Of a stretch of 52,500 bases of DNA, positions 17,976 to 52,500 are shown piece after piece. Positions within the stretch are counted from its first letter, which is position 1; each line of letters begins with the position of its first letter. The notes under the pieces were generated by a model. It worked only from the letters and a program-made list of their open reading frames with translations. It had not been told where the DNA came from and made no database searches. The position numbers were made by a program, and so were the translations under genes. This DNA is from Halichondria panicea. Its lineage: Eukaryota > Porifera > Demospongiae > Suberitida > Halichondriidae. The stretch covers positions 6,549,639 through 6,602,138 of the forward strand of contig NC_087383.1 of NCBI RefSeq assembly GCF_963675165.1, given 5' to 3'.

Positions 17976-18399
17976 GTGACAGGGCCTATATAGGAAAACA
18001 ACCCTTATGGAGCAAACTAATTAATTGTATTTTATTGCTTAATTAAATAAAGCAGTGCTTAAGCTTCAAATTGATTACAATATCACTCACTTTGCACCTT
18101 CCTACCCCAAAATATTTTCGGGTGAAAGGGGGACAGTATTGACCTACCATTTTGAGAAACTAATGTTCGAAGTTCTATCCGTATACAAGAACAGCATGAA
18201 AAAATTCAATGGCTGCCTTGTAACGGCTATACAAAAAAATTTTCGGATAAAAAAATTTTTTATTTAGTTAGAGGAGATATTGAAGTTACTTCTTATGAAA
18301 GAAAACCAAAATCCTAAAATAGCTCTAAATATTTTACTTTGTAGTGTACTGAACATTATTTGTTTGCTCCATAAGGGTTGTTTTCCTAGGCCCTGTCAC
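17976..18399. mobile_element. 424-bp MITE of the GTGACAGGGCC family
   Basis: Both ends carry GTGACAGGGCCTA...GGAAAACAACCCTTATGGAGC. The left copy has 4 extra bases (TATA) inside the repeat. The flanks are ATGT on both sides (17972-17975 and 18400-18403), a 4-bp target duplication. Termini and target-site length match the 6-kb element at 44213-50212, so this is likely a deletion derivative mobilised by it. The ORF-like stretch inside is not recognisable as protein. Confidence 0.88.
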
Positions 18400-30600: not shown

Positions 30601-32395
30601 CCCTTTTCCGGCTTTAACCCTTTCCCCGCTTTAGCCGACTATAGTCGGCATGGCTACTGATAAATTTCAAAAAATCGTTGTGCACACTGTGTTGGAGCTA
30701 TGCGCACACTGCAGGTACCAGCACATGCGCATTGAGCTGCTCTTCCACATGGTATTTTTAATATTTTGCTTCGAGGTACGGTTTGATCAGAATTGTCGAA
30801 AGAAAAGTGACCGTTTTATAATTGCTACAAGATCTTCGTAGTACAACCTCAGGGAGGTTCTAGGGAAGCTAGAGAGTGAGAATATCGATGCCTATGGCCT
30901 TGTAGAGTGAGAGGACAGTGACTGGGATCATAGCTAGGTAGGAAGCTTCCTTTCAGAGGTCAAGCTAAAAAGAAAGAGCCTGAGAATCCTGAGGAAGACG
31001 CACTTGAGGTGGACCATCTTCCTGAACCTGGTAAGTCACTATAGAGAAGCATTTGTAGTCTTGATAGCTTCACTATAGGTTTGTTTAGGCTAGTTAGTAC
31101 AACAGTGGACATCATGAGCCACCATTAAACTTGTAAACCTGTGTGTAGGTGAAGAAAATATATCCCGGGAAAAGGGCGTCTGCCGATAGAACCTCAAATA
31201 CAAGTTTCTGCAGATCCTGATTGAGTCCTGAGTCAGCCATGTCACCGTGAGAACATTCTGAACACTTATATCATGTGTTCAGTCACTTCGTAACATCACA
31301 CAATTATTGTTTGTGTACATAATTATGAATTTTTGTTAACAATTGTTATTTGTGGGGTGGTGGTTGGTTGCTAGGCAACAATGATGATTCCATGAATGCG
31401 ACAGGTCCGGTTCTACCTGTGGAACTTTGTTACAAGTGTTTTTAATATACGGTTCATGAGTTATAAATTTTTTAAACAAAATATGCGAATATTCACTTTT
31501 AATTAAAGCAGGGAAAGGGTTAATTAAAAAACAAAATACAGAATAAATCTTTAAAAATACATATCTCATGAACAATACATTGTAATCACTTGCAACTATT
31601 TCCAACAGGTAGCCCAGATCCTGGGGGTACCATGACATCATCATCATTACCTAGCAACTGACCACTCCCCACTAATTAACAATTTTTTTACACATTAATT
31701 TTCACAATTACAATAATTATTGTATGAAGGCATTAAGTAACTAAAGACACTAAGTAAGTGTTCTCAATGTTCTCTCACGGTGACATGGTTCAATCAGGAT
31801 CAGCAGAAACTTCTCTGCGAGGTCGTATCGGCAGACGCTCTTTTCCCGGGAAATGTTTTCTTCACCTACTCACAGGTTTACAAGTTCAATGGTGGCTCAT
31901 GATGTCCACTTGTGTACTAACTAGACTAAGCATACCATACTGAAGCTATCCTGACTACATTATGATGCTCCATAGTTACTTACAAGGTCCAGGACTTTGG
32001 TTCATGCTCAGGAGCTTCTTCCTCCGGCTCTTCAGGCTCTATATTTATAGCTTAACCTCTGAAAAGTAGTTTACTCTCTTGGTATGATCCCAGTCACTGT
32101 CCTTTTACTCAACAAGGCCATAAGCATCGTTATTTCCACTGTCTAGCTGCCCTAGAACCTCGCTGAGGTTGTACTATGAAGATCTTGTAGCCATTATCAA
32201 ACGGTCACTTTTCTTTTGACAGTACTGCATGAAGTGTGCCTCGAGGTAAGATACCACGTGAAAGAGTAGCCCAATGCGCATGTGCTGGTACCTACATTGT
32301 GCGCATAGCTCCAACACAGCGCCCACAACGATTTTTTGAAAATTATCACTACAGCTGCCGTCATAATAATTATGACGGCTAAAGCTGGGAAAGGG
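30601..32395. mobile_element. piggyBac-like element P2 (with nested P1)
   Basis: TTAA lies on both sides (30597-30600 and 32396-32399). The ends read CCCTTTTCCGGCTTTA and, reversed, CCCTTTCCCAGCTTTAGCCG. TTAA targets and CCCTTT termini fit piggyBac-like elements. The interior resembles P1 in inverse orientation and has no intact transposase. Its counterpart is P3 at 38020-39265. Confidence 0.78.
30618..31519 (+). mobile_element. piggyBac-like element P1, nested in P2
   Basis: TTAA, then CCCTTTCCCCGCTTTAGCCG; the right end CTTTAATTAAAGCAGGGAAAGGG is followed by TTAA. The duplicate copy at about 38033 has only GCTTTAATTAAAAA, the empty site, which proves insertion at TTAA. A short frame from ATGGCTACTGATAAATTTCA and acidic patches (EDALEVDHLPEPG) suggest a decayed ORF with introns. 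Confidence 0.85.
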
Positions 32396-32639
32396 TTAAG
32401 CCATTACTTTTTAATTTCAGCAGCTAATAATAAATTTTTATTGGCACACCACATTTTTTCAAATGTGATTGGAATAACAATTAGATTTACTGATACGTAA
32501 AATGTGGGATATATTTTCACAGTGATTATTTTATTATTCACATTGTAAAAAAGACTGCCTATAATTCAAAAAATTATTCCGGAATATTTGGTACAGGCCT
32601 ATAGTCCCAGTCCTGCACCTGAGTATGAGGCGCTTTATA

Positions 32640-33376
32640 GGGCCGAGTGAAGCGAGTCTCTATAATAATTATAGTCATCTGTCTGTCTGTGATGGACGTA
32701 CGGCACGGATTTTATCGTGATCCTACAGTAGCGATCAATATAAAGTACCCGTTCCGTTTACGTAGCACACCCGTAGTACGTTTCATAACGTTTCTGTTTT
32801 TACACCATCATAATTATTAAAAACGTTGAAATTTACTGTACCGTTTATTTACCGTTACATGTTGCAAGTACGTTGTAGAAAAGTAGCAAACAAAGAGACA
32901 ATCCTAGTCATCTCAATTACTTAGCTATGCTATGGCTTATGTCTAGCTGTAATTAAGCCTATAGCTCTTGATCTATACATAATTATAACGCACCATTCAC
33001 ACTTCTCATTCAACTTCTCATTAAAAAGATATTAATGTCTGCAGTCTCTATAATTATATAAATATGAGTCCTATCTCTGTTCTGCAAGGTTATAGAAAAC
33101 GCTAATATCTATATAATTATACAGCTAACTATAACTTTACAATAATTATATAGCTATATATAGCTGCGTGCAGAGCTGCATGCATGGGTATGACAATGGT
33201 TGAATAAGAAAAAACGCATTATACGCGTACTACGGACGTACTACGTAAACGGAACGGGTACTTTATATTGGCTGCTACTGTAAAGTATCATTTGAGACGT
33301 ACACGCAATGGGTTGGGATATAGAAAGGTCAGGTAATATATGTCATTACAGTGCATGCATGCGTATACTAACTTAC
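32640..33376. other. Intron of the ankyrin gene in copy 1, no exon seen
   Basis: Contains a pair of inverted phrases, GTACCCGTTCCGTTTACGTA (32746) and TACGTAAACGGAACGGGTAC (33243), with AGTACG/CGTACT words. These mark an inverted-repeat element of about 0.5-0.6 kb (approximately 32690-33280), repeated in copy 2 (39552-40144). No coding frame. Confidence 0.55.
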
Positions 33377-34088
33377 TATTGATATCCACATTGCACTCTG
33401 TGATGAGGTACTTGATAGTGTCCAGCTTCCCCTCTCTGACTGCCATTCCCAGTGGAGTTAGTCCATCACTGGTCACAGCTCCTATAGTGGTGAGTCAGGA
33501 CAGTGTCAGGAATGCACAATACATTGTCTCAGAAACCATAACTAATGAACGTCACCAACAACTATTGCCTGAACACCTCTATATGTCCCATACTGCACCT
33601 ACCCAACTATACCCACAGTAAGTGGTGTATATATAATTATACTCAAGACATACACAATGAGTTATGGGGGGCCTAACATTGCATAAGGTATAAGATATCA
33701 ATGTTGAGACATACACAATTAATGGGTAGAGGTAGAAAGGTAAAGTGATGCATGCCATTAGCAATCAGCGTACAAACATATTCACTCACTATTGACATCC
33801 ACATTGCACTGATTGATCAGATAACAGACAATTGCAGTGTACCTAAACTTGCAAGCAATAAGAAGTCGATTGTTCTCTGGAGAAAACGATAAAAAGTGGT
33901 TAATATGAAGCACTATAGACCCTTGTGAGGGGTGGATTAATACTATAACAAAAGGAGCATCTGTTGCTAGTCAGTAAATGACCGCCACTCAGTGTACACC
34001 TAATAATGAATCTCACCGTTAACTTTGGTGGTTACATCACCTTCATTTTTCAGTGTCAGCTCTAGGATACGAACTACTTGTGCAGAAT
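33377..34088 (-). CDS. Three ankyrin-repeat exons, copy 1
   Basis: There are three minus-strand exons, all phase 1 to phase 1. Exon a (34017-34088) encodes SAQVVRILELTLKNEGDVTT KVN. Exon b (33790-33876) encodes NNRLLIACKFRYTAIVCYLI NQCNVDVN. Exon c (33377-33481) encodes AVTSDGLTPLGMAVREGKLD TIKYLITECNVDIN. Each has a clean acceptor (CTCAG, TCCAG, ACTATAG) and donor (GTGAGA, GTGAGT, GTAAGT). DGLTPL and the CNVDIN turn are ankyrin hallmarks. The phase also matches the Roc-COR exon at 26338, so they are probably the same gene, giving the ligand-binding part of the protein. The protein start is not in sight. Confidence 0.78.
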
Positions 34089-34375
34089 CTGAGGTGAGAA
34101 CAACAATTGCACTGTGAATATACTACGATAATAAATATGCATGCATGATAGAATGTTCAGCGCAAAATGGATCACATGCAGTCTACTGGATATGGTCACA
34201 AGAGCAAGGGCTTAATTGATAACCTCATAATTATTTTTACAAATTAACAAGCCTATACTGCATGTATGATTCTACATCAGGGTCTCACATCAGGGTCTCT
34301 GAATTAAGTAGTCACTTCAATATACCAGTCGTTATAAATTGCTAGCTTGATCAGACCTGAAGTGCGGCCATGCCT

Positions 34376-34486
34376 CCGTATATACTGTAGTTCTGGCTGC
34401 CCCAAGCTAGGTTTTTAATGTACGTTTATTACGGCCGGATATGACGTTTTGGGTGTGATTTGAAGTATGAAAGTTTAAATAGAGAG
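34376..34486. mobile_element. R3 (pogo-like) element, left part, copy 1
   Basis: Has TACTGTAGTTCTGGCTGCCC, TTTATTACGGCCGGATATGA and CGTTTTGGGTGTGATTTGAA. It is interrupted by the hAT-like MITE and continues after 34858 with GATTCGAGATCAACC and AATAGCCGCGGTTATAATTT. The copy 2 equivalent is at 41225 onward. Confidence 0.55.
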
Positions 34487-34857
34487 CAGTGGCGTAGGCA
34501 GGGGGTGGCAAAGGGGGCAAATGCCTCCCCTTTTTCTGGATCTCTACTACTCAGCTCAGGTTAGTGTAGCTGATTATCTTGCTGAGCACTCCCTTTCTAC
34601 CCAATCTTGCTGCAGTTAGCTAGCTAGTACGCAAGCAAAACGATTTAGTCCCTAAACTGTGAGCTATTCTGGTCTAAATCTATAGACAGTTCTTGTTCTT
34701 TGCTAAACTAGCTTTCTAAACATTAGGCCACACCCAACTAAATAGAGAAATCAATTATGACATCATAATTAAGAGGCGTGGCTTCCGGTCAAAATTTCGG
34801 CGCTGCGCGGCTGATAGGTTTTGCCCCCTCTTCCAAAAAATCCTGGCTACGCTCTTG
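34487..34857. mobile_element. hAT-like MITE, copy 1
   Basis: Starts CAGTGGCGTAGGCAGGGGGT and ends CCTGGCTACGCTCTTG, the degraded partner. CAGTGGCG ends are usual for hAT-type MITEs. The interior is non-coding. The counterpart in duplication copy 2 is 41345-41720, so this insertion predates the duplication. Confidence 0.75.
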
Positions 34858-35563
34858 GAGAGCATAACAATTCAAGACAAAGTCGCAAATTAGTCATTAG
34901 ATTCGAGATCAACCTGCACAGTCCCAATTAACCGAATAGCCGCGGTTATAATTTCATACCGCCCACCGCGTAACCAAAATCTAGTCAAATCGCTTGTTAC
35001 TCGAGACTTTTCTTCTGCTTATAATGATATCTAAGAATTGCCGACAAACACTCAATGCCTATAGATGCATGTATATAGACTTTACATGTGTAATAGAATT
35101 TTGATCATCAAAACGTCCATCCTCTCTAACCACCACATGGGTTTCCGTACACTCTTGTTATAATTATTACTACGATAATACACAAATTGAATACTAGGCC
35201 TTATCAAGATCAAGCTATAATAATTATTATTGTACAAACTTGATTACTAATAGTTCCCAAGCTTATAGGGGGTGTTTCAGCACCCTGAGTCCCTAGCTCG
35301 ATACGAATGCACATAATCAAGCAATGATAATCAGCTAACGTAACCAACAAGACAATATTTTGGTTTTATGATAATACAGTATACATGCATCTATAATTAT
35401 AGTTCATCAGAAAAGACGAAAATTACGTAAAACTACTATGAGGCTGCTCAGTGCATGGGTAGCTAGCTGAAGATCAGAGTATAATCCTGACTGCACATGT
35501 AACATAACATAATATTGCATAATTATTGCTAAATCATTAGGCTATCATTGATTGAGCCTTTAA
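34858..35563. other. Non-coding part of duplication copy 1
   Basis: R3 right-hand remains, then AT-rich sequence with a small hairpin (GGGGGTGTTTCAGCACCCTG, 35268). No gene. It is duplicated almost unchanged at 41721-42428. Confidence 0.55.
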
Positions 35564-35635
35564 CCCTTTCCCCGTTTTAATTAAAACACAAACAATTTTC
35601 TAAAAATTCATAATTATAATAATTATCATGAACCA

Positions 35636-37018
35636 TGTAATGTTCTAGTTACGTAATGTTTATTTATGTAATCATTATTAGTTTATGGTACTAGCTATAT
35701 TTATCTATTTCTATTTTTAGCCAGGTCCTAGTACTTATTTGATTGGTGTAATTATTAGATAGCCACATGCTAATACTGATAAATGATTTATTATCGATGC
35801 AAAACTATTAACTGTTCACTAGAGTGTAGAACAGTATAACTGGCGACAAGGATACCAGGATGGCTGAAGCAGGGCTGAGCCTATAATCTCTTACTCCATT
35901 TGACCCAATCTCAGACCCTACCTCGCTAGGACAGCGATGGAAAGCATGGAAACGGCGTTTTGAAACATACTTGGCAGCTCTCAACATCACAGATGGAGGA
36001 AGAAAGAGAGCTCTTCTCATATATCAAGTTGGGGAAGATACACAGTCAATTTTTGATACCCTGACAGACACAGGAGATGACTATGACACAGCTATAGACA
36101 AGCTGGATGAATACTTCGCCCCCAAGAAGAATGTTGATTACGAGATCTTCAAGTTTCGCACTGCTGCTCAAAACACTGGAGAAACTATTGATCAATACAC
36201 AACAAGACTCCGGAAGTTGGCCCAGAATTGTGAGTTTAACGATTTAAACCGTGAAATAAAATCGACCATTATTCAGAACTGTTTATCGAAAAGACTCCGT
36301 AGAATAGCGCTTCGTGACGATCTCACACTTGATACTCTGATTGGCAAAGCCAGATCAATGGAAATGAGCGAGACCCAGGCTAGTGGATGGAACAACTCTC
36401 TGCGTCTGTGAACCAACTCCACGTGAAGAGACCTCCACGTAAATTCCCGATGAAGCAAACTCACACCCCTTCGAACCAATGTCGAAAGTATGGACTCACA
36501 TGGCCCCACAAGGAAGGTCCGTGCCCCGCAATCGGAAAAACTTGCAAGAAATGCGACAAACCCAACCATTTTGCTCGAGTATGTTTGTCCAAAACAACAA
36601 TGCCACGCAGTAAACAACAATGGAAAGGAACTAGACGTATACGACAAGTTGGAACTGCACCCAGACCAGACACAGAGTCAGATAATACAAGCAGTAGCGA
36701 CGACGAGTACCTATACGTACTCGGAAACTCTACCCATTCCAAAGCACCAATGGTCACTAATAGTTACATCGCAATAATAGTTACATCGCTAATAATAGTT
36801 ACATCGCTAATAATAGTTACATCGCAAAGGGTAAACTTTTCTGCTGCTTGGGCTCATTATGACATCCCTGTTACAGTGATGATAGATACAGGTGCATCAG
36901 CCAACATCATTGATGAAGACAGTTTCGAGGAAATACAAAAACATTGTACAATAGAACTGAACTCACCCACAAAGCGCATGTTTGCGTATGGATCTGACTC
37001 ACAACTCACTGTCCTTGG
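35636..37018 (+). mobile_element. Gypsy-type LTR element fragment: LTR, gag, protease start
   Basis: The insertion edge is exact: copy 2 continues through ATCATGAACCATACATTG, while here TGTAATGTTCTAGTTACG begins at 35636, the expected TG start of an LTR of about 200 bp. A primer-binding region (about 35838, TGGCGACAAGGAT) and a gag reading frame follow, then an abrupt join to duplication copy 2 at 37018. The rest of pol and the 3' LTR are missing. Gag has a nonsense codon near its start and one frameshift, so the copy is dead. Confidence 0.82.
35904..36411 (+). pseudogene. gag capsid region of the LTR element
   Basis: The frame reads SLGQRWKAWKRRFETYLAAL, then KRALLIYQVGEDTQSIFDTL, IDKLDEYFAPKKNVDYEIFK and TIDQYTTRLRKLAQNCEF. 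This is the retroviral-type capsid segment of Gypsy gag (former UBN2/retrotransposon gag family). The presumed start near 35861 is followed by an in-frame TAA at about 35883, and the frame is lost by a 1-nt shift near 36388. Confidence 0.82.
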
Positions 37019-37040
37019 ATATTCTATGGATAGAATCTAA
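36387..37040 (+). pseudogene. gag nucleocapsid and start of retropepsin, chimeric end
   Basis: Encodes a zinc knuckle (CKKCDKPNHFARVC, the CCHC spacing 2-4-4) and then the aspartic protease start VTVMIDTGASANIIDEDSF with the catalytic DTGA. Between them, 36757-36862 hold four tandem TAGTTACATCGC units and a segment found in the duplication flanks. The last residues (YSMDRI) come from duplication copy 2, so the C-terminus is not native. Confidence 0.78.
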
Positions 37041-37380
37041 ATACACAATCTAGACTGGTAGAACATCTCTAGCACTGCATACCCACACTCATTTTCACCC
37101 TTCTACCGTCCTTCTACCCTCACACGACTTCCTGATATAATTATACATGCTCTCCTTTTTGCTAACTCTATACCTCTATATTCCTCCATTCTTTTCGTAT
37201 TTTAATAGCTAGTATAGAATGTATTGCGAGCATCAAACATAATTATATGTGAACTTTGCGAGGGTTGATCAATTCGCAATAATAAAATCGCAAAATCTAC
37301 TAGTAAATACACACGATCCTTACCAGAACGCAATAGTTACATCGCAAAGGGTAAACTTTTCTGCTGCTTGGGCTCATTAT

Positions 37381-37935
37381 ATGCCTCGGTGCGCATGCGC
37401 AAGCGAGGTATATGGTAGTGTGTTTGTGTGTGTGTGTGTCTAGATCTGTGTGTGTGTGTGTCTGTGTAGACTGCTACAGCTGCTCAAGGATGAATCAAGT
37501 GCAAGTAAGAGTATTATGCTTACTTGGATTTTAATTTGTAGATTTGCAAAATAATGCTTACTTGGAATGCCATTACAGCCTTTTCAGAAGAGTGCGTAGC
37601 GAAATTTGTCCATGGAGTGTTGCTACTCTACTTAGTATAGTTAGCTCTGCACTAGAACGCTAGCTATTGGTAACTGCAACACTGAGAAGAGAGCTGCATG
37701 CAAGGCTCTACTGATGCAGCTATTAACCTTGGCTTGAACTTTTGGCATCGATCGTTTTTAACAACAAACAAGGTCGATCATTACCCACTCTTTGAGTTTG
37801 CATGCAGCATGCAAATTAAAAAATGTTCATCATGTGTACCGCATACTATACGTGTATAAGCTTTATGTTATGTAGCTTTGGCATCTCCACCGAGGCATGC
37901 ATGCATGAGCACCTGCATGCGGTGCTTTCATTCAA
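37381..37935 (+). mobile_element. R1 dispersed element, copy D
   Basis: The 5' end ATGCCTCGGTG is exactly complemented by CACCGAGGCAT at 37888-37898. The AGCACCTGCATGCGGTGCT hairpin follows. It is the duplicate of copy C. Confidence 0.82.
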
Positions 37936-38019
37936 ATTGATGACACCTATATATTATTCAAATTATCCAACATTCACAGCAACGAAATAAAACACCTACA
38001 AATTATAAAGCACCATTAA

Positions 38020-39265
38020 CCCTTTCCCGGCTTTAATTAAAAAAAAAAAATACAGAATAAATACACATTTTTCTTCAAAAATACATAATATCTCATGAAC
38101 AATGCATTGTAATCACTTGCAACTATTTCCTACAGGTAGCCCAGATCTGGGGGTACCATGACATCATCATCATTACCTAACAACTGACCACCCCCAGTGG
38201 CGGATCCAGGGGGGATCCCAGGGTGCCATGGATCCCCCCTTTCAGACTAAGCTATTGTGGCTTTACTACAGCTACCAGCTAGCTATTTATCAGTATTGTA
38301 GCTATTATTTTATCAGTGTTGTAGCTTGATTCAATGATTGTACCTGTTGTTCTGATGCATCAACTGCCAAAGGAGTGTTCAGGTTAGCCTAGGTTAGCTA
38401 GTTGACTGTTCGTAGCAGAGCTAGTTAGCTCTACGCAAGTTTATTATGGGACCTTCCCCTGGGATTTTACCTAGTCACGTGTGACCGGAAGTGGGCGTAA
38501 CCCCAAAAAATTTCGCGCTACGCGCGACTTTCACTACTCACACTGCGCGCTCGTAGTTTGGAACCCCCCTTTCATATTTCCTGGATCTGCCACTGACCCC
38601 CACTAATTAACGATTTTTTTTACACATTTCACAATTATAAACATGCATTAACAATAATTATTGTATGAAGGCATGAAATAACTAAAGACACTAAGTAAGT
38701 GTTCTCAATGTTCTCACGGTGATATGGTTCAATCAGGATCAGCAGTTCAATGGTGGCTTATGATGTCCACTTGTGTACTAACTAGACTAAGCATACCATA
38801 CTGAAGCTATCCTGACTACATTATGATACTCCATAGTTACTTACAAGGTCCAGGACTTTGGTTCATGCTCAGGAGCTTCTTCCTCCGGCTCTTCAGGCTC
38901 TATATTTATAGCTTGACCTCTGAAAAGTAGTTTACTCTCTTGGTATGATCCCAGTCACTGTCCTCTTACTCAACAAGGCCATAAGCATCGTTATTCTCAC
39001 TGTCTAGCTGCCCTAGAACCTTGCTGAGGTTGTACTATGAAGATCTTGTATAATTATAGCCATTATCAAACGGTCACTTTTCTTTCGACAGTACTGCACG
39101 AAGTGTACCTCGAGGCAAGATATTAAAGATACCACGTGAAAGAGCAGCCCAATGCGCATGTGCTGGTACCTACAGTGTCCGCATAGCTCCAACACAGCGC
39201 CCACAACGATTTTTGAAAATTATCACTACCGCTGCCGTTATATAACGGCTAAAGCCGGGAAAGGG
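38020..39265. mobile_element. piggyBac-like element P3
   Basis: TTAA at 38016-38019 and 39266-39269 flanks CCCTTTCCCGGCTTTA and its reverse partner GCTAAAGCCGGGAAAGGG. A hAT-like MITE is nested at 38196-38596. The element is non-coding as it stands. Confidence 0.8.
38196..38596. mobile_element. hAT-like MITE nested in P3, absent from copy 1
   Basis: Starts CAGTGGCGGATCCAGG and ends CCTGGATCTGCCACTG. At the matching place in copy 1 (about 31672) the sequence reads straight through ACTGACCACTCCCCACTAAT, giving an empty site. The flanking 8-mers ACCACCCC and ACCCCCAC are near matches, as expected for a hAT target duplication. The insertion is therefore younger than the segmental duplication. 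Confidence 0.85.
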
Positions 39266-40240
39266 TTAAGCTATTATTAATTTTTTTAATTTCAGCAGCT
39301 AATAATAAATTTTTATTAGCACACTACATTTTTTCAAATGTGATTGGAATAACAATTAGATTTACTGATACGTAAAATGTGGGATATATTTTCACAGTGG
39401 TTTATTATTCACATTGTAAACAAGACTGCCTATTATTCAAAAAATTATTCCGGAATATTTGGTACAGGCCTATAGTCCCAGTCCTGCACCTGAGTATGAG
39501 GCGCTTTATAGGGGCGAGTGAAGTGAGTCTCTATAATATAGTCATCTGTCTGTCTGTGATGGACGTACGGCATGGATTTTATCGTGATCCTACAGTAGCG
39601 GTCAATATAAAGTACCCGTTCCGTTTACATAGTACACCCGTAGTACGTTTCATAACGTTTCCGTTTTTACACCATCATAATTATTAAAAACGTTGAAATT
39701 TATTGTACCGTTATTTACCGTTACATGTTGCAAGTATGTTGTAGAAAAGTAGCAAACAAAGAGACAATCCTAGTCATCTCAAGTACTTAGCTATGCTATG
39801 GCTTATGTCTAGCTGTAATTAAGCCTATAGCTCTTCATCTATACATAATTATAACGCACCATTCACACTTCTCATTCAACTTCTCATTAAAAAGATATTA
39901 ATGTCTGCAGTCTCTATAATTATATAAATATGAGTCCTAGCTCTGTTCTGCAAGGTTAGAAAACGCTAATATCTATATAATTATACAGCTAACTATAACT
40001 TTACAATAATTATATAGCTATATATAGCTGCGTGCAGAGCTGCATGCATGGGTATGACAATGGTTGAACAAGAAAAAACGCATTATATGCGTACTACGGA
40101 CGTACTACGTAAACGGAACGGGTACTTTATATTGGCTGCTACTGTAAAGTATCATTTGAGACGTACACGCAATGGGTTGGGATATAGAAAGGTCAAGTAA
40201 TATATGTCATTACAGTGCATGCATGCGTATACTAACTTAC

Positions 40241-40950
40241 TATTGATATCCACATTGCACTCTGTGATGAGGTACTTGATAGTGTCCAGCTTCCCCTCTC
40301 TGACTGCCATTCCCAGTGGAGTTAGTCCATCACTGGTCACAGCTCCTATAGTGGTGAGTCAGGACAGTGTCAGGAATGCACAATACATTGTCTCAGAAAC
40401 CATAACTAATGAACGTCACCAACAACTATTGCCTGAACACCTCTACATGTCCCATACTGCACCTACCCAACTATACCCAGAGTAAGTGGTGTATATATAA
40501 TTATACTCAAGACATACACAATGAGTTATGGGGGGCCTAACATTGCATAAGGTATAAGATATCATTGTTGAGACATACACAATTAATGGGTAGGTAGAAA
40601 GGTAAAGTGATGCATGCCATTAGCAATCAGCGTACAAAGATATTCACTCACTATTGACATCCACATTGCACTGATTGATCAGATAACGGACAATTGCAGT
40701 GTACCCAAACTTGCAAGCAATAAGAAGTCGATTGTTCTCTGGAGAAAACGATAAAAAGTGGTTAATATGAAGCACTATAGACCCTTGTGAGGGGTGGATT
40801 AATACTATAACAAAAGGAGCATCTGTTGCTAGTCAGTAAATGACCGCCACTCAGTGTACACCTAATAATGAATCTCACCGTTAACTTTGGTGGTTACATC
40901 ACCTTCATTTTTCAGTGTCAGCTCTAGGATACGAACTACTTGTGCAGAAT
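40241..40950 (-). CDS. Three ankyrin-repeat exons, copy 2
   Basis: Exon a 40879-40950, exon b 40652-40738 and exon c 40241-40345, with the same lengths (72, 87 and 105 bp), phases and splice sites as copy 1. Exon c is unchanged at protein level (DGLTPLGMAVREGKLDTIKY). All open. Because every exon is phase 1-1, the two sets can be joined in one transcript without a frameshift. Whether both sets are spliced into one protein, or one set belongs to a truncated gene copy, cannot be told from sequence alone. Confidence 0.72.
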
Positions 40951-41344
40951 CTGAGGTGAGAACAACAATTGCACTGTGAATATACTAAGATAATAAATAT
41001 GCATGCATGATAGAATGTTCAGTGCAAAATGGATGACATGCAGTCTACTGGATATGGTCACAAGAGCAAGGGCTTAATTGATAACCTCATAATTTTACAA
41101 ATTAACAAGCCTATACTGCATGTATGATTCTACATCAGGGTCTCACATCAGGGTCTCTGAATTAAGTAGTCACTTCAATATACCAGTCGTTATAAATTGC
41201 TAGCTTGATCAGACTTGAAGTGCGGCCACGCCTCCGTATATACTGTAGTTCTGGCTGCCCCAAGCTAGGTTTTTAATGTACGTTTATTACGGCCGGATAT
41301 GACGTTTTGGGTGTGATTTGAAGTATGAAAGTTTAAATAGAGAG

Positions 41345-41720
41345 CAGTGGCGTAGGCAGGGGGTGGCAAAGGGGGCAAATGCCCCCCCTTTTTCTGGATC
41401 TCTACTACTCAGCTCAGGTTAGAGTAGCTGATTATCTTGCTGAGCACTCCCTTTCTTCCCAATCTTGCTGCAGTTAGCTAGCTAGTAGGCAAGCAAAACG
41501 ATTTAGTCCCTAAACTGTGAGCTATTCTGGTCTAAATCTATAGACAGTTCTTGTTCTTTGCTAAACTAGCTTTCTAAACATCAGGCCACACCCAACTAAA
41601 ATTAATAGAGAAATAAATTATGACATCATAATTAAGAGGCGTGGCTTCCGGTCAAAATTTCGGCGCTGTGCGGCTGATAGGTTTTGCCCCCTCTTCCAAA
41701 AAATCCTGGCTACGCTCCTG
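41345..41720. mobile_element. hAT-like MITE, copy 2
   Basis: Counterpart of 34487-34857, with the same termini CAGTGGCGTAGGCAGGGGGT and CCTGGCTACGCTCCTG. The interior differs by a few substitutions and an AATTA-type indel. Confidence 0.75.
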
Positions 41721-42428
41721 GAGAGCATAACAATTCGAGACAAAGTCACAAATTAGTCATTAGATTCGAGGTCAACCTGCACAGTCCCAATTAACCGAAT
41801 AGCCGCGGTTATGATTTCATACCGCCCACCGCGTAACCAAAATCTAGTCAAATCGCTTGTTACTCGAGACTTTTCTTCTGCTTATAATGATATCTAAGAA
41901 TGATTGCCAACAAACACTCAATGCCTATAGATGCATGTATAGACTTTACATGTGTAATAGAATTTTGATCATCAGAACGTCCATCCTCTCTAACCACCAC
42001 ATGGGTTTCCGTACACTCTTGTTATAATTATTACTATGATAATACACAAATTGAATACTAGGCCTTATCTAGATCAAGCTATAATAATTATTATTGTACA
42101 AACTTGATTACTAATAGTTCCCAAGCTTATAGGGGGTGTTTCAGCACCCTGAGTCCCTAGCTCGATACGAATGCACATAATCAAGCAATGATAATCAGCT
42201 AACGTAACCAACAAGACAATATTTTGGTTTTATGATAATACAGTATACATGCATCTATAATTATAGTTCATCAGAAAAGACGAAAATTACGTAAAACTAC
42301 TATGAGGCTGCTCAGTGCATGGGTAGCTAGCTGAAGATCAGAGTATAATCCTGACTGCACATGTAACATAACATAATATTGCATAATTATTGCTAAATCA
42401 TTAGGCTATCATTGTATTGAGCCTTTAA

Positions 42429-43665
42429 CCCTTTCCCCGTTTTAATTAAAACAAAAACAATTTTCTAAAAATTCATAATTATAATAATTATCATGAACCA
42501 TACATTGAAATGACTTGTAACAGGTAGCGCAGACCCCAGAGGTATCTTGACACCATCTTCGTTACCTAGCAACTGACCACCCCACTAATTAGCAATTGTT
42601 TACAAACATTCACAATTATGTACACAAACAATAATTATTTGTATGAAGGCACAGAGTGGCTAAAGACGTGTTCTCAATGTTCTCACGGCGACATAATTAT
42701 ATAGTTCAATCAAGATCTGCAGAAAGTTATCTGCGAGGTCGTATCAGCAGACGTCCTTTTCCCGGGAAATGTTTTCTTCACCTCAGGTTTACAAGTTCAA
42801 TGGTGGCTCATGATGTCCACTGCTGTACTAACTAGCCTAAATACAGTTATACTGAAGCTATCAAGACTACATGCAGATGCTACTCTAGACTTACCAGATC
42901 CAAGAAGTTGGTCCATCACAAGAGCTTCTTCCTCAGGCCTTTCAGGCTCTATATTTTCTAGCTTGAGGTAGCTCGTTATCTAGCTATGATCCCAGTTACT
43001 GTCCTCTCACTCTACAAGGCCATAAGCATTGATATATTGTCACTGTCTATAGCTTTCCTAGAACCTCATTGAGGTTTTACTACAAGGATCTATCAAACGG
43101 TCCCTTTTCTTTCCACGTTATAGTTGTGACACATGCAGGAGTGCCACATGCATGGGATATAATTATTGGCTCAGTAGTGACTTAGGCCCATGCAAGGGCC
43201 ACAGGCCTCGAGGGCAAAGGCACTACTGAGCCAATAATTATATCCAATGTGTGCACGAGTAAGCTGTGTAACAACTGATTTGTTGCATTCCTTGTTGCAT
43301 TCCTTTCGGTGTACACATCACTTCTTTTAGAGGACAACTAGTTTCAACTACTTGTGGTGGCTGTGGAATGCTCCAGACGCATGAAAAACATTTTCTGCCT
43401 ACCACTGAATCTGTTTAACAGTGTTATATAAAAGGGACCGTTTCAGGTTACTAGGTGGAGGGTGCATGGGCTTTAGGTAACTTCAGCCATACTATGGCTT
43501 GACCTGTGCCATATAGCAGATATTGGCACAGTATTTCCTTTGATCTGCCCACTCAAAATGCAACAAATTACTGTACGAAGCGTACCTCGAGGCGGCTTAT
43601 TAAAGATACCACGTGAACTTTTGAAAATCACTACTATAATTATGACGGCTTCAATGGGAAAAGGG
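42429..43665. mobile_element. piggyBac-like element P4, diverged
   Basis: TTAA at 42425, then CCCTTTCCCCGTTTTAATTA; the right end reads GACGGCTTCAATGGGAAAAGGG followed by TTGG where TTAA is expected. Internal words match P1-P3 (CTTTTCCCGGGAAATGTTTT, ATGGTGGCTCATGATGTCCA). The first 72 bp also exist at the end of copy 1 (35564-35635). It carries the hairpin element at 43155. Confidence 0.68.
43155..43245. mobile_element. 91-bp hairpin element with perfect 25-bp inverted repeats
   Basis: The arm at 43155-43179 (core ATTGGCTCAGTAGTG) is exactly the reverse complement of 43221-43245, with a 41-base loop rich in GGCC words. It lies inside P4. It may be a miniature element or encode a hairpin RNA. 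Confidence 0.85.
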
Positions 43666-43930
43666 TTGGCTACAGGCCATTTAAGACGATCAGTATGCAC
43701 CATTAACTGTGCTGAACACCCCTTTCTTGTGAAACAATCAAAGCACATTGCAATTTATTTACCTATTCTATAACACTAATACTTTTGAGCGAAAGCAAAA
43801 ACGTGGCGAGAGGCATTAGCAAGCGCACGCTTGCAACACTCGTTGTAACTGTATACATGTGTGTAATAGTCTGCTAGTACTGCATGCCTCAAGACCACTA
43901 ATTACTACGTAGCCACCAGCGAACAAAAAT
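43666..43930. other. No gene; short dispersed motif at 43788-43850
   Basis: Contains the GAAAGCAAAAACGTGGCGAG motif shared with 21045. No splice-supported frame. Confidence 0.5.
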
Positions 43931-44003
43931 TCATCCAATGTGGGGCTCAAACCCATGATCCTCAGATTAAGAGTCTGATGCTCTACCGACTGAACTTGAC
44001 TTA
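43931..44003 (-). tRNA. tRNA-Lys (CTT)-like sequence, probably a pseudogene or SINE head
   Basis: Minus strand: D-arm GTTCAGTCGGTAGAGC, anticodon arm TCAGA-CTCTTAA-TCTGA with anticodon CTT, T-arm ATGGG-TTTGAGC-CCCAC and 3' acceptor strand ATTGGAT. The 5' acceptor strand (ACTAAGT) pairs poorly with it, one T-stem pair is A-C, and the T-loop has TTTGAGC for TTCGAGC. The internal A and B boxes survive. Decay in the acceptor stem argues against a working tRNA, though the body is clearly tRNA-Lys. Confidence 0.6.
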
Positions 44004-44605
44004 GTAGCAGATCCAAGAAAAAGAAAAGGGGGTTTTCAAATTAACAAGCGCGCAGTACGAACATTTTTGGGAGTTACGCCCACTTCCGGTCACACGTTGT
44101 GTAAAACTATAGGGAAATCCCATGCATTCTTAGCCAGGGTAAGTCCCATAATAGACCGGCCTGCGTAGAGCTATAGCTAGCTGCTATGAACAGTCAACTA
44201 ACTAACTTATATGTGACAGGGCCTAGGAAAACAACCCTTATCGCGCGGGTGGTAATATTTTATTTTATTGTTGGATCAAATTAAGCGTTGTTTTAGCGTC
44301 AAAATGATACCAAGATCGCCTACTTAGCACTTACCAATCGAAAGATAATGTTTGTGGGAGCGGTTAAACTATTGCAACGCCCTTTGAGAAAACCGCGTTT
44401 AAATTTCAATGATTATTACCACGTCATTTCAATGATTTCTGTGAACCTCCGTATACCTGGATAAATCGTCGCCGCCCTCTACCGTTATCCTACGAACCCT
44501 CGTGGTTCCGCAGAAAGTTAAGGGCTGCCTGGCCAGCTAGCTATAGGCTCTTCACTGCTTTTCAGGAGTATATTTAAAGGATCACCGACTCACAAGACAA
44601 TAATT

Positions 44606-44917
44606 ATGGGTAAGCAAAAAGAGAGAACTTTTGTGTGAATATTTAAGCTGTAGAGCTAGAGATGCTTATACAAAGTTTTTTATTAAATTTTATAAAAATT
44701 ATCTTGTATGAATTTAGAACACTCTGATCCTGTGCCCATCATGAAGGTGTGCTCATCATGTAAGGGTAAGTTGCTTGATGCCTCATCATGAAGTAGTATA
44801 AGACTGTGTGTATTTAATTTTACGCACCCCTTCGATAATGTTGTAGGTGAGGCTATTAAATGTACGCACCCCTTCTGTTGTACACAGCAAATTCTTTTGT
44901 TTGTTGGCAGTTCTTAG
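44606..44917 (+). CDS. Possible 40-codon spliced ORF of the transposon
   Basis: Exons 44606-44609, 44718-44765 and 44847-44917 are bounded by GTAAGC/TTTAG and GTAAGT/TTGTAG. Joined, they read MEHSDPVPIMKVCSSCKGEA, then IKCTHPFCCTQQILLFVGSS, stop. The Cys/His pattern (C-x2-C...C-x2-H-x3-C-C) suggests a small zinc-binding protein. It would converge on the main gene, its stop being about 40 bp from the main stop. A 4-nt first exon is unusual and chance splice sites are possible, so this is tentative. Confidence 0.25.
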
Positions 44918-44955
44918 AAGAACTAAAAAAAAAAGGTTTAAAGGGTTGTGAGAGC

Positions 44956-47285
44956 TCAATTCGAGGGACAGTTCCTCTTGTCATGTCCCACTGTCCTGCA
45001 AATTCCGCATACACGCTGCCTCTTAGGTGGAGGTGGAGCAGGTGACAACGGGGACGATGGTGGAGTGGGAGTGGGACTGATTTCACGTTGGGGGGTGTTC
45101 TGTCTGCTGAACGGTCGAGGATGAGATGGAAGAGGACATGTGACGTCTCTATCCTGTTCTGGACAAAACTCCCGAATTTTGTCGTACAGATACCATTGTC
45201 TCTGCAGGGACAGACCCGCTGGGTGTATCTCTGATGGTAGCTCGTTCTCGTCAAAGATGACACCAGGTTTGAGAAGAGTGTGCTCATTCTCCTGGCCATC
45301 TGATCTCTCCTTAACATACACCTTCCCAGGCATAGAAGACGTCATCCTGAGGTGGTGGTACTTCTTCAGCGATGGTAGTTTCTTGAAACTGGTGGCGAAG
45401 AAGTCTGTCCAGTCGTAGGTCGGGACGATGACTTCTCCGTCATCACCTACCACCAATTGCACTTCATTGCACACTGCAGAGCGCTCCACAACTTGGCTCA
45501 TGTCCTTGAGGCTACCGATGGAGGTGCGACGGTACAGGCGCTTAAACAAGCCGAAGCACCAGTCTGGAGTGAACTTGGTGTGCCCAACAACCAAGAAGGA
45601 CAAGGTGATCTTGGTGTGTCTCTTCGTCAGGACTCTCCAGGCAAGGTACTGTATCATGGCGTTGTTCTTGTTTTGCCCAGTACAGTTATCAGCATGGAGA
45701 TACACTTCTTTCTCTCCTATAGTAAAAACAATCATTGTAATAATAATTACGGTTTTTCAATTTTTCTATGTTGTTGCTCACCCAGGCTGTGGTGCTCGAA
45801 GAAGTAGTGAAGCTGGCTGATAACCGTGTTGGCCCCTTTCCCACAATCACCAGCTTCATCACACAGAAAGTTGATCTGTCTGGGAATGGCCTCACATGCA
45901 ATTCCAAATACAGCACACTTCCTAGGGGTCAAGAAGTAGATGGGACCTGGTTGGAGAGGGTTACTTGGGAAGTGCACCTGAAAAGAAAAAAGGTTCGTTA
46001 AATCACACACACGCATACATGTACACACGCCTACACACGCCCACACACATGCCTACACGTCCCTCTCCCCACACATACGAACTCCTCCCACACAGACACA
46101 CACATACTTAGTTACATTCTTTTCAACTCCTCCCAACTCCTCCCACACACACACACATACTTAGTTACATTCGTTTTAACTCCTCCCACACAGACACATA
46201 CACACACACACACATGCACACTCGTTCCAACTCCTCCCACACACACACACACATACTTAGTTACATTCTTTTCAACTCCTCCCAACTCCTCCCACACACA
46301 CACACACACACATACTTAGTTACATTCGTTTCAACTCCTCCCACACAGACACATACACACACACACACACACACACACGCGCACACACTCGTTCCAACTC
46401 CTCCCACACACATAGTTACATTCGTTCCAACTCCTCCCACACACACACACACATACTTAGTTACATTCTTTTCAACTCCTCCCAACTCCTCCCACACACA
46501 CACACACATACTTAGTTACATTGGTTTTAACTCCTCCCACACAGACACATACACACACACACACATGCACGCTCGTTCCAACTCCTCCCACACACACATA
46601 CTTAGTTACATTCGTTTCAACTCCTCCCACACAGACACACACACACACACACACACACACGCGCACACACTCGTTCCAACTCCTCCCACACACATAGTTA
46701 CATTCGTTCCAACTCCTCCCACACACACACACACATACTTAGTTACATTCTTTTCAACTCCTCCCAACTCCTCCCACACACACACACATACTTAGTTACA
46801 TTCGTTTCAACTCCTCCCACACAGACACACACACACACACACACACACACACGCGCACACACTCGTTCCAACTCCTCCCACACACATAGTTACATTCGTT
46901 CCAACTCCTCCCACACACACACACACATACTTAGTTACATTCTTTTCAACTCCTCCCAACTCCTCCCACACACACACACATACTTAGTTACATTGGTTTT
47001 AACTCCTCCCACACAGACACATACACACACACACACATGCACACTCGTTTCAACTCCTCCCACACACATAGTTACATTCGTTCCAACTCCTCCCACACAC
47101 ACACACATACTTAGTTACATTCTTTTCAACTCCTCCCAACTCCTCCCACACACACACACATACTTAGTTACATTCGTTTTAACTCCTCCCACACAGACAC
47201 ATACACACACACACACATGCACACTCGTTTCAACTCCTCCCACACACACACACTTAGTTACATTCGTTTCAACTCCTCCCACACA

Positions 47286-47318
<33 letters not shown>

Positions 47319-49844
47319 GCACACACTCGTTCCAACTCCTCCCACACACATAGTTACATTCGTTCCAACTCCTCCCACACACACACACACATACTTAGTT
47401 ACATTCTTTTCAACTCCTCCCAACTCCTCCCACACACACACACACACACATACTTAGTTACATTCGTTTCAACTCCTCCCACACAGACACATACACACAC
47501 ACACACACACACACGCGCACACACTCGTTCCAACTCCTCCCACACACATAGTTACATTCGTTCCAACTCCTCCCACACACACACACACATACTTAGTTAA
47601 ATTCTTTTCAACTCCTCCCAACTCCTCCCACACACACACACACATACTTAGTTACATTGGTTTTAACTCCTCCCACACAGACACATACACACACACACAC
47701 ATGCACGCTCGTTCCAACTCCTCCCACACACACATACTTAGTTACATTCGTTTCAACTCCTCCCACACAGACACACACACACACACACACACACACACGC
47801 GCACACACTCGTTCCAACTCCTCCCACACACATAGTTACATTCGTTCCAACTCCTCCCACACACACACACACATACTTAGTTACATTCTTTTCAACTCCT
47901 CCCAACTCCTCCCACACACACACACATACTTAGTTACATTGGTTTTAACTCCTCCCACACAGACACATACACACACACACACATGCACACTCGTTTCAAC
48001 TCCTCCCACACACATAGTTACATTCGTTCCAACTCCTCCCACACACACACACATACTTAGTTATATTCTTTTCAACTCCTCCCAACTCCTCCCACACACA
48101 CACACATACTTAGTTACATTCGTTTTAACTCCTCCCACACAGACACATACACACCTGTTGTGCATAGTCAAAGCTGTAGTGGGCCTTGATTGGCACTGAG
48201 TTAGCAGGGGGAGTTGAGAAGAGAGGGGGTGGCTGAAACTCCACAGCTGCTGTAGTGAAGTGCTCCCTTATCGACTCTTTGCACTGATCCAAAGTCGTCC
48301 GATAGTACGATCGCTCGAGCTGCACCAGTGTCAAGTGATCCTCGAAGGCCTTGAGCGTGGAGGATTTGATACTCTCGGGATCGTTGACTGCTCGCAATAC
48401 AGCTGTGCTGTTTTTTTGGCACACCCAGCACAGGTCAGTCATTGGCTTCATCAGAACAAGGTATGGTAGTAATTGCTGCCATAGTCGACAAAAAGTCCTG
48501 TAAGCGGCTGCCCGACTTTCCTCCTTACCCATTGCTTCAATGTACAGCTTCCATATACACCGCTTAGATGTGCTGGATGGCAGCAGCTTGATATCAGAGC
48601 TACTGTACCCAGGTACTCGCCCGGGCAAAAGAACTCCGTTTGCCTCCGAATAGTTCAGGAGGAATTGAAGGATGTTCTTAATATCTTCATGAGATAAGGT
48701 GTTCTTCGGAAGGCGGTGCGTGTTCCCATGCACCCTTGGCACAAGCCCATTATCCTTCAGGTTTGAGATCAGATTGTCCAGTCTACTCTCACCTGTTGGG
48801 TAAGTGTTTTGCAATGATGGTGTTTTATAATTATGTTCTCCTTTGCTAGTCTTTAACTCACCAACAACGTTGAGGAACCGATACATACGAGCGCACACAG
48901 GGTGTCCTTGATGATGGTAGGCAATCCTCACCCGTTTCCTGGGAGTCCCTGGGTGCCTCGATTCCGTTACCACCTGTTCCGACATATTCATTGAAGCCAT
49001 GAGTTGCCCCAACAACACCATGTCCAAGTCATGCTTGGTTAACTCAAAACAACTACATCGCATCGCTAGCAGGTACTCGATGGTGTAGTGTTTTGAGCAG
49101 TCAGTTCCCTTGTTTTTGTGGCACCCACATCCACCTTGAACAAATTTTTCCACAGTCTCCTTCTCCTGCTTCTCCAGCTCCTCTGGAGTGAGTGCCCTCG
49201 GTGTGGTGGGAGGCAGATTCCGGGGTAGTCTGGAAAGGGCATCATCTAACTGCTGCTGTGACGTTAGTGGTTGATCATCGTTCTCATCCTCATCACTAAC
49301 GCCTGAAAAAATGTTTCATGTCACTTATTGCATTTATTCGTTGAGGAGGAAGCTTACCACTGCCATCAAGATCACCTTGTTGCTGACTACCACTGGCACC
49401 TGAAATAAAGTTTGTTGCACCTGTTACTTATTGCATTTGTTTATTTAAGATTTGCAGAAAGCTTACCTCTGTCATGAGGACTGCCTGATGAGGGTCCGTA
49501 GCCACCTTCCTCCATCTCATCCAACCCGTCCATGTCCAACCCATAGTCATCTGAAAACATTAATTATTTTTTGAAAAGTATTGCTATTTTTTTTGTTTAG
49601 TTTAATAGCATACCTGTGAAGTTGAGACTCTCATCATGATCATGAGATGGTTCATCTTCTATTAGTGTTTCAATGTAATAATTATCTCTTAGTACAAGTA
49701 GTAGTGCTTACCATCTTCAGACGGTGACGTGCAGTCCCAGTCATCAAAATAGTCCTCTATGACCTTGAGTAGTTCTGATTGGTCACTCTGCCCAAACTGT
49801 ACCATTTCATTAATGGCCTGTGCAGCTTTCTTGGAGCTAGACAT
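44956..49844 (-). CDS. Putative transposase, 779 codons, eight exons
   Basis: Exons (5' to 3'): 49844-49712, 49658-49614, 49550-49467, 49399-49358, 49302-48862, 48792-48155, 45977-45782 and 45716-44956. All introns are GT-AG, all phases agree, and the total is 2,340 bp including the stop. The first 150 residues are acidic and low in complexity. A Cys-rich patch (CGCHKNKGTDCS) lies at about 160-171. The middle holds LVPRVHGNTHRLPK and MKPMTDLCWVC. The conserved C-terminal half has LPRQ-like IPRQINFLCDEAGDCGKGAN, YLHADNCTGQNKNNAMIQYL and VGHTKFTPDWCFG, where the Asp residues could form an RNase H-type active site. A Pro-rich tail and a zinc knuckle (CGICRTVGHDKRNC) close the protein. It resembles the widespread uncharacterised HADNCxGQNKN proteins (I believe DUF7869-like) of cnidarians and sponges. 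Transposase function is inferred from sitting alone within matched terminal repeats. The start could lie slightly upstream. Confidence 0.85.
46000..48152. repeat. 2.1-kb CA-rich minisatellite with higher-order structure
   Basis: Units have a CA run plus TACTTAGTTACATTC(G/T)TT(T/C)CAACTCCTCCCACA. A longer variant, CTTTTCAACTCCTCCCAACT, recurs about ten times at spacings of roughly 150-290 bp, with GCGCACACACTCGTTCCAAC and ACATGCACACTCGTTTC variants in order, so there is a higher-order repeat. It occupies nearly the whole intron between exons 6 and 7 of the transposase gene. The long frames crossing it on both strands are repeat artefacts. Confidence 0.95.
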
Positions 49845-50212
49845 CTTTTTAAAGAGTTGCCAAGCGCTAGAAGAAGATGCACCTGCAAGTCTTGCATGCA
49901 GCTCGCACAAACCTTGAATTTTAGCCGCGGGGAATTCCCCTTGACAACGGAATACTTATCGGATATTTCTCCGTGTTACGTGAATTTAATTTCGTGATCG
50001 TGCAACGTTTTAGTGGCTGTCTTTAGACTGCTCGCTTGGCCATTGCTTAGCGTTTTTAGGCCTAAAAACTTCGCACAAGTGTAGAGGAGGCTTTCAAGTT
50101 GCATATTATGAAAGAAAATCAGAAGGTGGGAAAAATCAGCAAGTTTATATTTTGTGTCATAAATGTTTTTATTAGTTTGCGCGATAAGGGTCGTTTTCCT
50201 AGGCCCTGTCAC

Positions 50213-50335
50213 ATATGGGAGAACACATTTGATACATCAAAACAACAGGTACAATTAATACAAAAAGCTAGGTAGTATAGTTACATGCAATAAAGCCAGC
50301 TAGCACTATAATTATAGTGCAGAGCTATATAAAAT
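50213..50335. other. Right flank of the 6-kb transposon, no gene
   Basis: Starts with the ATAT target copy and is AT-rich. Nothing coding. Confidence 0.6.
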
Positions 50336-51687: not shown

Positions 51688-52500
51688 GTGACAGGGCCAA
51701 TGAAAACAGACCTTAACGCGGGCATTTTCGAATCAGTTTTTATTGTTGAATCGGATAGGGCGTCCTTTAAGCTTCAAAATGATACCAAGATCGACCTCCT
51801 AGCTAACTTTCTTTCCGGAGATATGTTCGAGGGAACGCTACGAAGGTATTGCAATGCCCTCTTGAGTAAACGTCTTGATAATTGAAGTTCAATTATTGGC
51901 TTCCGGGCACTTCCGTATAGTCATAAAGCTTAGTAAAAGATGTTCTGGAGAAGACAAGTTAGTTAGATGAAGGCTAGGCGTTCTAGGACTCTCTAGCTAT
52001 AGCTAGTATAGCTATGTAGCTGGATTGCTTGGCACCTAGGAAGGATCTTCGAAGAAATAAAGAGACAAAGACTCCCGTCGCTCGAATGGTAAGCTCTCAT
52101 GTCTTGTTATAAGCTTGTACTTATTATCTGTGTAATGTATCAGTCTTATAAAAGATCCCTCACTTGTATGGAGCCTACAGAAAGTGTCTCTGTCCTTCAT
52201 ACAGCTTAAAGGAAGCCTAAGTAATCTATTATAGGTAGTCTTTCACTTAGTATTCGTCCGTATCGATCTAAGGCTTGATCCAACTTATTAGTAGCCTTAT
52301 AAGAAGCTTTCCTCCTTTAATTTAGTACTGGTATCACTGCCATTGTGCTTAGTAGTAACAGGCCTGATGGGATGGGTGATCACATCATGGAGGGCCCAGG
52401 AAACTGCGTGGAATTGTCGTATAACATTTATATTGATGGTTCCCCCAGGTGGTGGTAAGTGTCGGAGGCCTGAGAAACGCTAGTCTATTGGCTAGAATGT
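51688..52500 (+). mobile_element. Third GTGACAGGGCC-family element, left end, runs off the window
   Basis: Starts GTGACAGGGCCAATGAAAAC after ATAT (51684-51687). Internal words line up with the left end of the 6-kb element (TTATTGTTGAATCGGATAGG; CAAAATGATACCAAGATCG; GCAATGCCCTCTTGAG). No right end occurs before 52500. An ATG followed by GTAAGC near 52085 parallels ATGG|GTAAGC at 44606. The right boundary is not visible, and the interior beyond about 51910 no longer clearly aligns. Confidence 0.65.

Follow-up and report, generated by a model that had tools for sequence, protein, structure and literature searches.

What does a protein with the domain DUF7869 do when its gene lies alone between matched inverted ends? 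This question is raised by a locus of the sponge Halichondria panicea, for which we analysed a window of 52,500 nucleotides (NC_087383.1, positions 6,549,639 to 6,602,138 of the forward strand), and our results indicate that the segment at 44213-50212 is a complete DNA transposon of 6.0 kb, in which the DUF7869 protein very likely serves as an Asp-Asp-Asp (DDD) transposase. Its 34-bp terminal inverted repeats (TIRs) lie at 44213-44246 (plus strand, at the 3' side of the gene) and 50179-50212 (minus strand, at the 5' side) and pair at 33 of 34 bases. ATAT can be read directly on both sides, at 44209-44212 and 50213-50216, as the family-wide rule described below leads one to expect. Since ATAT reads the same on both strands, this single locus is ambiguous between a 4-bp target duplication and a longer inverted repeat (the arms including ATAT measure 38 nt and match at 97%), and it is the other copies that decide.

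To find these copies, we searched the 131-Mb sponge genome with the element's first 20 bases and the preceding T (21 bases, up to 2 mismatches), which gave 149 matches on each strand (298 in total) and none for the reversed control. Within the window, four ends matched with up to 3 mismatches, compared with a mean of 0.00 over 100 shuffles, and a chance origin of the ends is thus excluded. Sixty-eight of the 100 match places listed, all of them exact, form 34 pairs; the DNA of every pair was read, giving sizes of 398-422 bp (17 pairs), 1,254-1,645 bp (16 pairs) and 7,945 bp (one pair). Identical 4-bp flanks are present in 30 of these 34. The T in the search pattern forces a T before and an A after the element in all 34 pairs, and the outer bases are as a 4-bp duplication predicts, with A at left position -4 in 31/34 and T at right position +4 in 34/34. 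A left flank also matches the right flank of a different pair in 391 of 1,122 comparisons. Such matches are frequent because ATAT dominates, and the copies with other flanks therefore carry weight: among non-ATAT left flanks of the form ANNT, 12 of 13 are matched on the right (AAAT 4/4, ATTT 3/3, AATT 3/4, AACT 1/1, AGTT 1/1), while the left flanks TTAT, TAAT and TGAT of three further pairs find no match there. Across all sponge loci read, if shared flanks are collapsed and the T is not demanded, the flanks agree in 32 of 37 family pairs, and elements recovered without the T show AAAT (L085), ATAT (L087) and ATGT (a small element in the window). Three copies with the same flanks are inserted in a satellite unit and were counted as one insertion; the unit without the element, carrying a single ATAT, occurs 19 times. 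An alternative in which the element ends in TGTGAC...GTCACA and duplicates a 2-bp TA was rejected, since the outer bases fit 4 bp and a single ATAT is present at the uninterrupted satellite site. The original prediction, made from the sequence alone, had described a structurally complete TIR element with a 4-bp duplication, and this description is borne out by the other elements with matching ends and flanks and by the related empty site.

The gene within the element is read on the minus strand and comprises eight exons, whose phases fit to give 779 uninterrupted codons and a stop, as had been proposed. By spliced translation, exon 1 with the start codon lies at 49712-49844, followed by exon 2 (49614-49658), exon 3 (49467-49550), exon 4 (49358-49399), exon 5 (48862-49302), exon 6 (48155-48792), exon 7 (45782-45977) and exon 8 with the stop codon (44956-45716). 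Intron 6 (45978-48154) measures 2,177 bases and consists mainly of long-period CA-rich tandem repeats. The predicted protein, P0001, is equal in length to isoform X2 of the H. panicea NCBI gene LOC135338462 and 100% identical to it over the part searched. It matches the Pfam profile DUF7869 (PF25273) at 64.9 bits, above the curated cut-off of 26, and no supported match beyond DUF7869 was found in Pfam; a C-terminal motif resembling a zinc knuckle gave a weak Pfam match (E 0.11).

The predicted structure of the protein contains an RNase H core resembling those of retroviral integrases and Mos1. On this model, the catalytic triad is most likely formed by D457 (YSFDYAQQ, on strand 1), D536 (HADNC, after strand 4) and D578 (TPDWCFG, at the start of a helix). 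The codon of the proposed first Asp, D457, lies in exon 6 at 48167-48169, as placed from the exon lengths, and those of the second and third lie in exon 8 at 45688-45690 and 45562-45564. D457 is conserved in 86 of 86 aligned sequences, and all three residues are retained when 8 bacterial proteins are aligned with 6 from animals. The original prediction had drawn its triad from HADNC, TPDWCFG and CDEAGDCGKG; the first two motifs hold their place, and D501 of the third, conserved in 85/86, was rejected in favour of D457 because the model places it on strand 3.

The association of the gene with such ends is seen elsewhere in the genome as well. A protein search gave at least 81 exon-level matches, which group into at least 32 places, a lower bound as 58 of 118 candidates were scored; DNA was read at nine places. 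At five of these nine (the window, L046, L085, L086 and L087), inverted ends enclose the gene and the 4-bp flanks are identical. L046 spans 7,945 bp with ATAT flanks and has stops in the gene, L085 spans 3,293 bp with perfect 32-bp ends, AAAT flanks and an open frame of 683 codons, and L087 spans 4,059 bp with ATAT flanks. L086 is 98.6% identical to L085 and is found at a different place with ATAT flanks; one of its ends lacks about 7 bases. L087 and L085 have ends that define separate repeat families (319+290 and 20+27 matches, respectively; controls 0), and the DUF7869 gene recurs within elements of three sponge end types. Elsewhere, 5' exons adjoin one intact end, arranged as in the window (L083/L023), and a duplicated segment (L088 and L089, 99% identical) has kept one degraded end. 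A further gene place, L090, has none of this family's ends; there, opposed 169-bp sequences, 91% identical and with poly(A) facing outward, bracket the DUF7869 gene (L090:397-565 and L090:5459-5627). An apparent gene fragment was also noted at the edge of L079.

Relatives of the protein are also found in bacteria. A scan of prokaryote genomes gave 13 loci, with 32-48% identity in the best segment and a maximum of 38% over most of the protein; one belongs to a strain record, Desulfocicer vacuolatum DSM 3385, and most others to metagenome assemblies. All seven bacterial open reading frames (ORFs) scanned, of 635-693 codons, match DUF7869 in Pfam. At seven of the 13 loci (L091-L095, L100, L102), the ORF lies inside an element resembling an insertion sequence (IS), 2.0-2.7 kb long, with inverted ends pairing at 30-35 of 35 bases, and it is the sole large ORF between the ends at the loci seen. 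No convincing inverted ends were found around the ORF at L096, L098, L099 and L101, and L097 and L103 start at a contig edge. With the element start set at GG, ANNT lies on both flanks in 7/7 and the flanks are identical in 3/7 (AATT, AAAT, ATTT); in several elements the inverted repeat continues into the flank, so that part of ANNT may belong to the ends. The sponge and bacterial ends share AAAA at positions 16-19, which is present in 22 of 22 ends (11 elements, 4 sponge and 7 bacterial), and when the 11 left ends were shuffled 20,000 times, six of them never shared a place for AAAA, although the compared ends are partly non-independent, those of the window, L046 and L087 being alike. A tree built from 32 sequences has the eight bacterial ones, labelled Thermodesulfobacteriota, Pseudomonadota, Nitrospirota and Myxococcota, all on the same side of a branch supported at 100/99, which makes contamination by sponge DNA unlikely. 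Each of seven bacterial genomes searched (a set outside which that of L096 falls) contains one match, and it is thus from structure alone that the mobility of the bacterial elements is argued. In the phylum of Desulfocicer, one of 395 genomes, that of Desulfocicer itself, has a relative. A search with the Desulfocicer protein found at least 740 proteins at E 0.001, and among the 120 matches listed, those that carry a name from their source are hypothetical proteins, bar one 'chaperonin' and one unreadable entry. Sixty-seven of these 120 lie on contigs of 2.0-2.5 kb; collapsed multicopy elements could produce such lengths, but short metagenome contigs would yield a similar picture, and we therefore made no use of them. 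Viral carriers were likewise looked for: a scan of viral contigs gave 13 pattern matches with no relative among them, and a fold search of BFVD returned nothing at E 0.001.

We propose that the element is an autonomous TIR transposon of the cut-and-paste type, whose single gene would encode a DUF7869 DDD transposase. The transposase would bind the 34-bp ends, perhaps recognizing the AAAA box through its Cys-rich N-terminal part; the bound ends would then be paired, cut by D457, D536 and D578 with metal ions, and joined to the target 4 bp apart within ANNT (mostly AWWT), leaving the 4-bp duplication. Relatives of the element may also have mobilised the hundreds of short, internally deleted copies. 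The gene could instead be a passenger, a captured host or accessory gene in a non-autonomous element that is moved by another transposase. The absence of the gene from the majority of the end family's copies, with 33 of the 34 pairs read being 1.65 kb or shorter, and the lack of these ends at L090 would agree with such an origin, but the recurrence of the gene with three end types, its position as the only large ORF in the bacterial IS-like elements seen, and a predicted fold and acidic residues of the transposase type leave this explanation highly improbable. A closer call is whether the transposon in the window, with its DUF7869 transposase, may still be able to move. It is quite possible, though not the reading we favour, that this copy is a dead fossil, structurally complete and immobile, as the mismatch between its ends, the repeat-filled 2.2-kb intron and the divergence of other gene loci from the window gene (identity of 52% for L085, 55% for L087 and 36-81% by segment for L046) might suggest. 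Its open frame, consistent splice sites and near-perfect ends speak against this, as does the similarity of 18 small copies, which are up to 99.8% identical and exceed 98% in 45 of 153 pairs; this points to recent movement in the end family without pinpointing which transposase acted.

Whichever superfamily applies, DUF7869 very probably marks a transposase family, and the original prediction, which spoke of transposases of a TIR superfamily, was right about this role; none of the three findings that it had named as counterevidence turned up. A new superfamily is not established by our analysis, and the features of the element fit descriptions of Sola and Sola2. The Sola superfamily and its Sola2 group reportedly go back to Bao and colleagues in 2009. 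One account of Sola gives a DDD transposase, 4-bp duplications, sizes of mostly 2-9 kb, TIRs of 11-1124 bp and a range of bacteria and metazoans (PMC10741241), and AWWT duplications, among them ATAT, AAAT and ATTT, are described for the Sola2 elements of dictyostelids (PMC3627910). In the sponge family, we found the 4-bp duplication in 30/34 pairs and at the uninterrupted satellite site; the left flanks agree with AWWT (ATAT 18, AAAT 4, AATT 4, ATTT 3), the last T being forced by the search pattern in these 34; the size of 6.0 kb (relatives 3.3, 4.1 and 7.9 kb) and the 34-bp ends lie within the ranges given; the DDD transposase is predicted from the model and the conservation of the three residues; and bacteria and animals are both represented across the 100/99 branch. 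The element is thus probably a member of the Sola group of the Sola2 type, from which it shows no difference when published descriptions, rather than transposase sequences, are compared. DUF7869 elements could alternatively form a superfamily of their own, in which one DDD transposase and one terminal signature unite an animal lineage with an IS family of bacteria. A superfamily in Repbase is defined by similarity of transposase sequences, and our link to Sola runs through published features instead; in addition, P0001 and six bacterial ORFs reached the cut-off of no NCBIfam model, and the term DUF7869 was not found in the literature searched, which also gave nothing for QNKN together with transposase, no sequence of a Sola transposase and no title on H. 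panicea transposons. Since the residues, target, size, ends and host range all fit the parts of the Sola and Sola2 accounts cited above, we regard a separate superfamily as unlikely, and most of the remaining probability falls to another group of Sola. If it did exist, it would span several bacterial phyla and animals, with AAAA at 16-19 of ends of about 35 bp and the 4-bp ANNT target kept on both sides, and the animal genes and bacterial hypothetical proteins would be transposases of a so far unnamed lineage hidden under the DUF label.

The window contains further repeats. A 424-bp non-autonomous relative at 17976-18399 has similar ends, ATGT on both flanks and up to 98.8% identity to other small copies, and one more relative, whose left end follows an ATAT, starts at 51688 on the plus strand and extends beyond the window (51688-52500). 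At 38481-44093, another inverted-end pair (20/20, GTGACCGGAAGT...) is flanked on both sides by the palindrome ACGT; it could represent either another element or an inverted repeat of greater age. Opposed copies at 30800-39100 (30807/32208/39077 and 30918/32097/38958) resemble an inverted repeat cluster.

DUF7869, labelled so far as a domain of unknown function, can now be read as a probable transposase whose active site, ends and target are open to testing. Animal genes annotated as uncharacterised host proteins, along with bacterial hypothetical proteins, can accordingly be handled as mobile DNA. For biochemical work on the group, the bacterial members, intronless and about 2.1 kb long, would be the simplest to use, and the AAAA box common to sponge and bacterial ends makes end recognition directly testable.

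Among other known systems, piggyBac and Kolobok target TTAA, which is present in 0 of 34 left and 0 of 34 right flanks of the sponge family, and we therefore do not place the element in either. With Tc1/mariner elements (Mos1, Sleeping Beauty) and retroviral integrases, the protein has an RNase H-like catalytic core in common according to the model; mariner duplicates TA, whereas the sponge element duplicates 4 bp of the form ANNT and its uninterrupted site has a single ATAT, which argues against membership of Tc1/mariner. The bacterial DUF7869 elements (for example L091 of Desulfocicer vacuolatum, L092 and L094) differ from the sponge element in that they are intronless and shorter (2.0-2.7 kb), begin with GG rather than GTGA and have identical flanks in only 3/7, but like it they have AAAA at positions 16-19 of ends measuring about 35 bp and ANNT on both flanks, and their transposase is homologous over most of its length.
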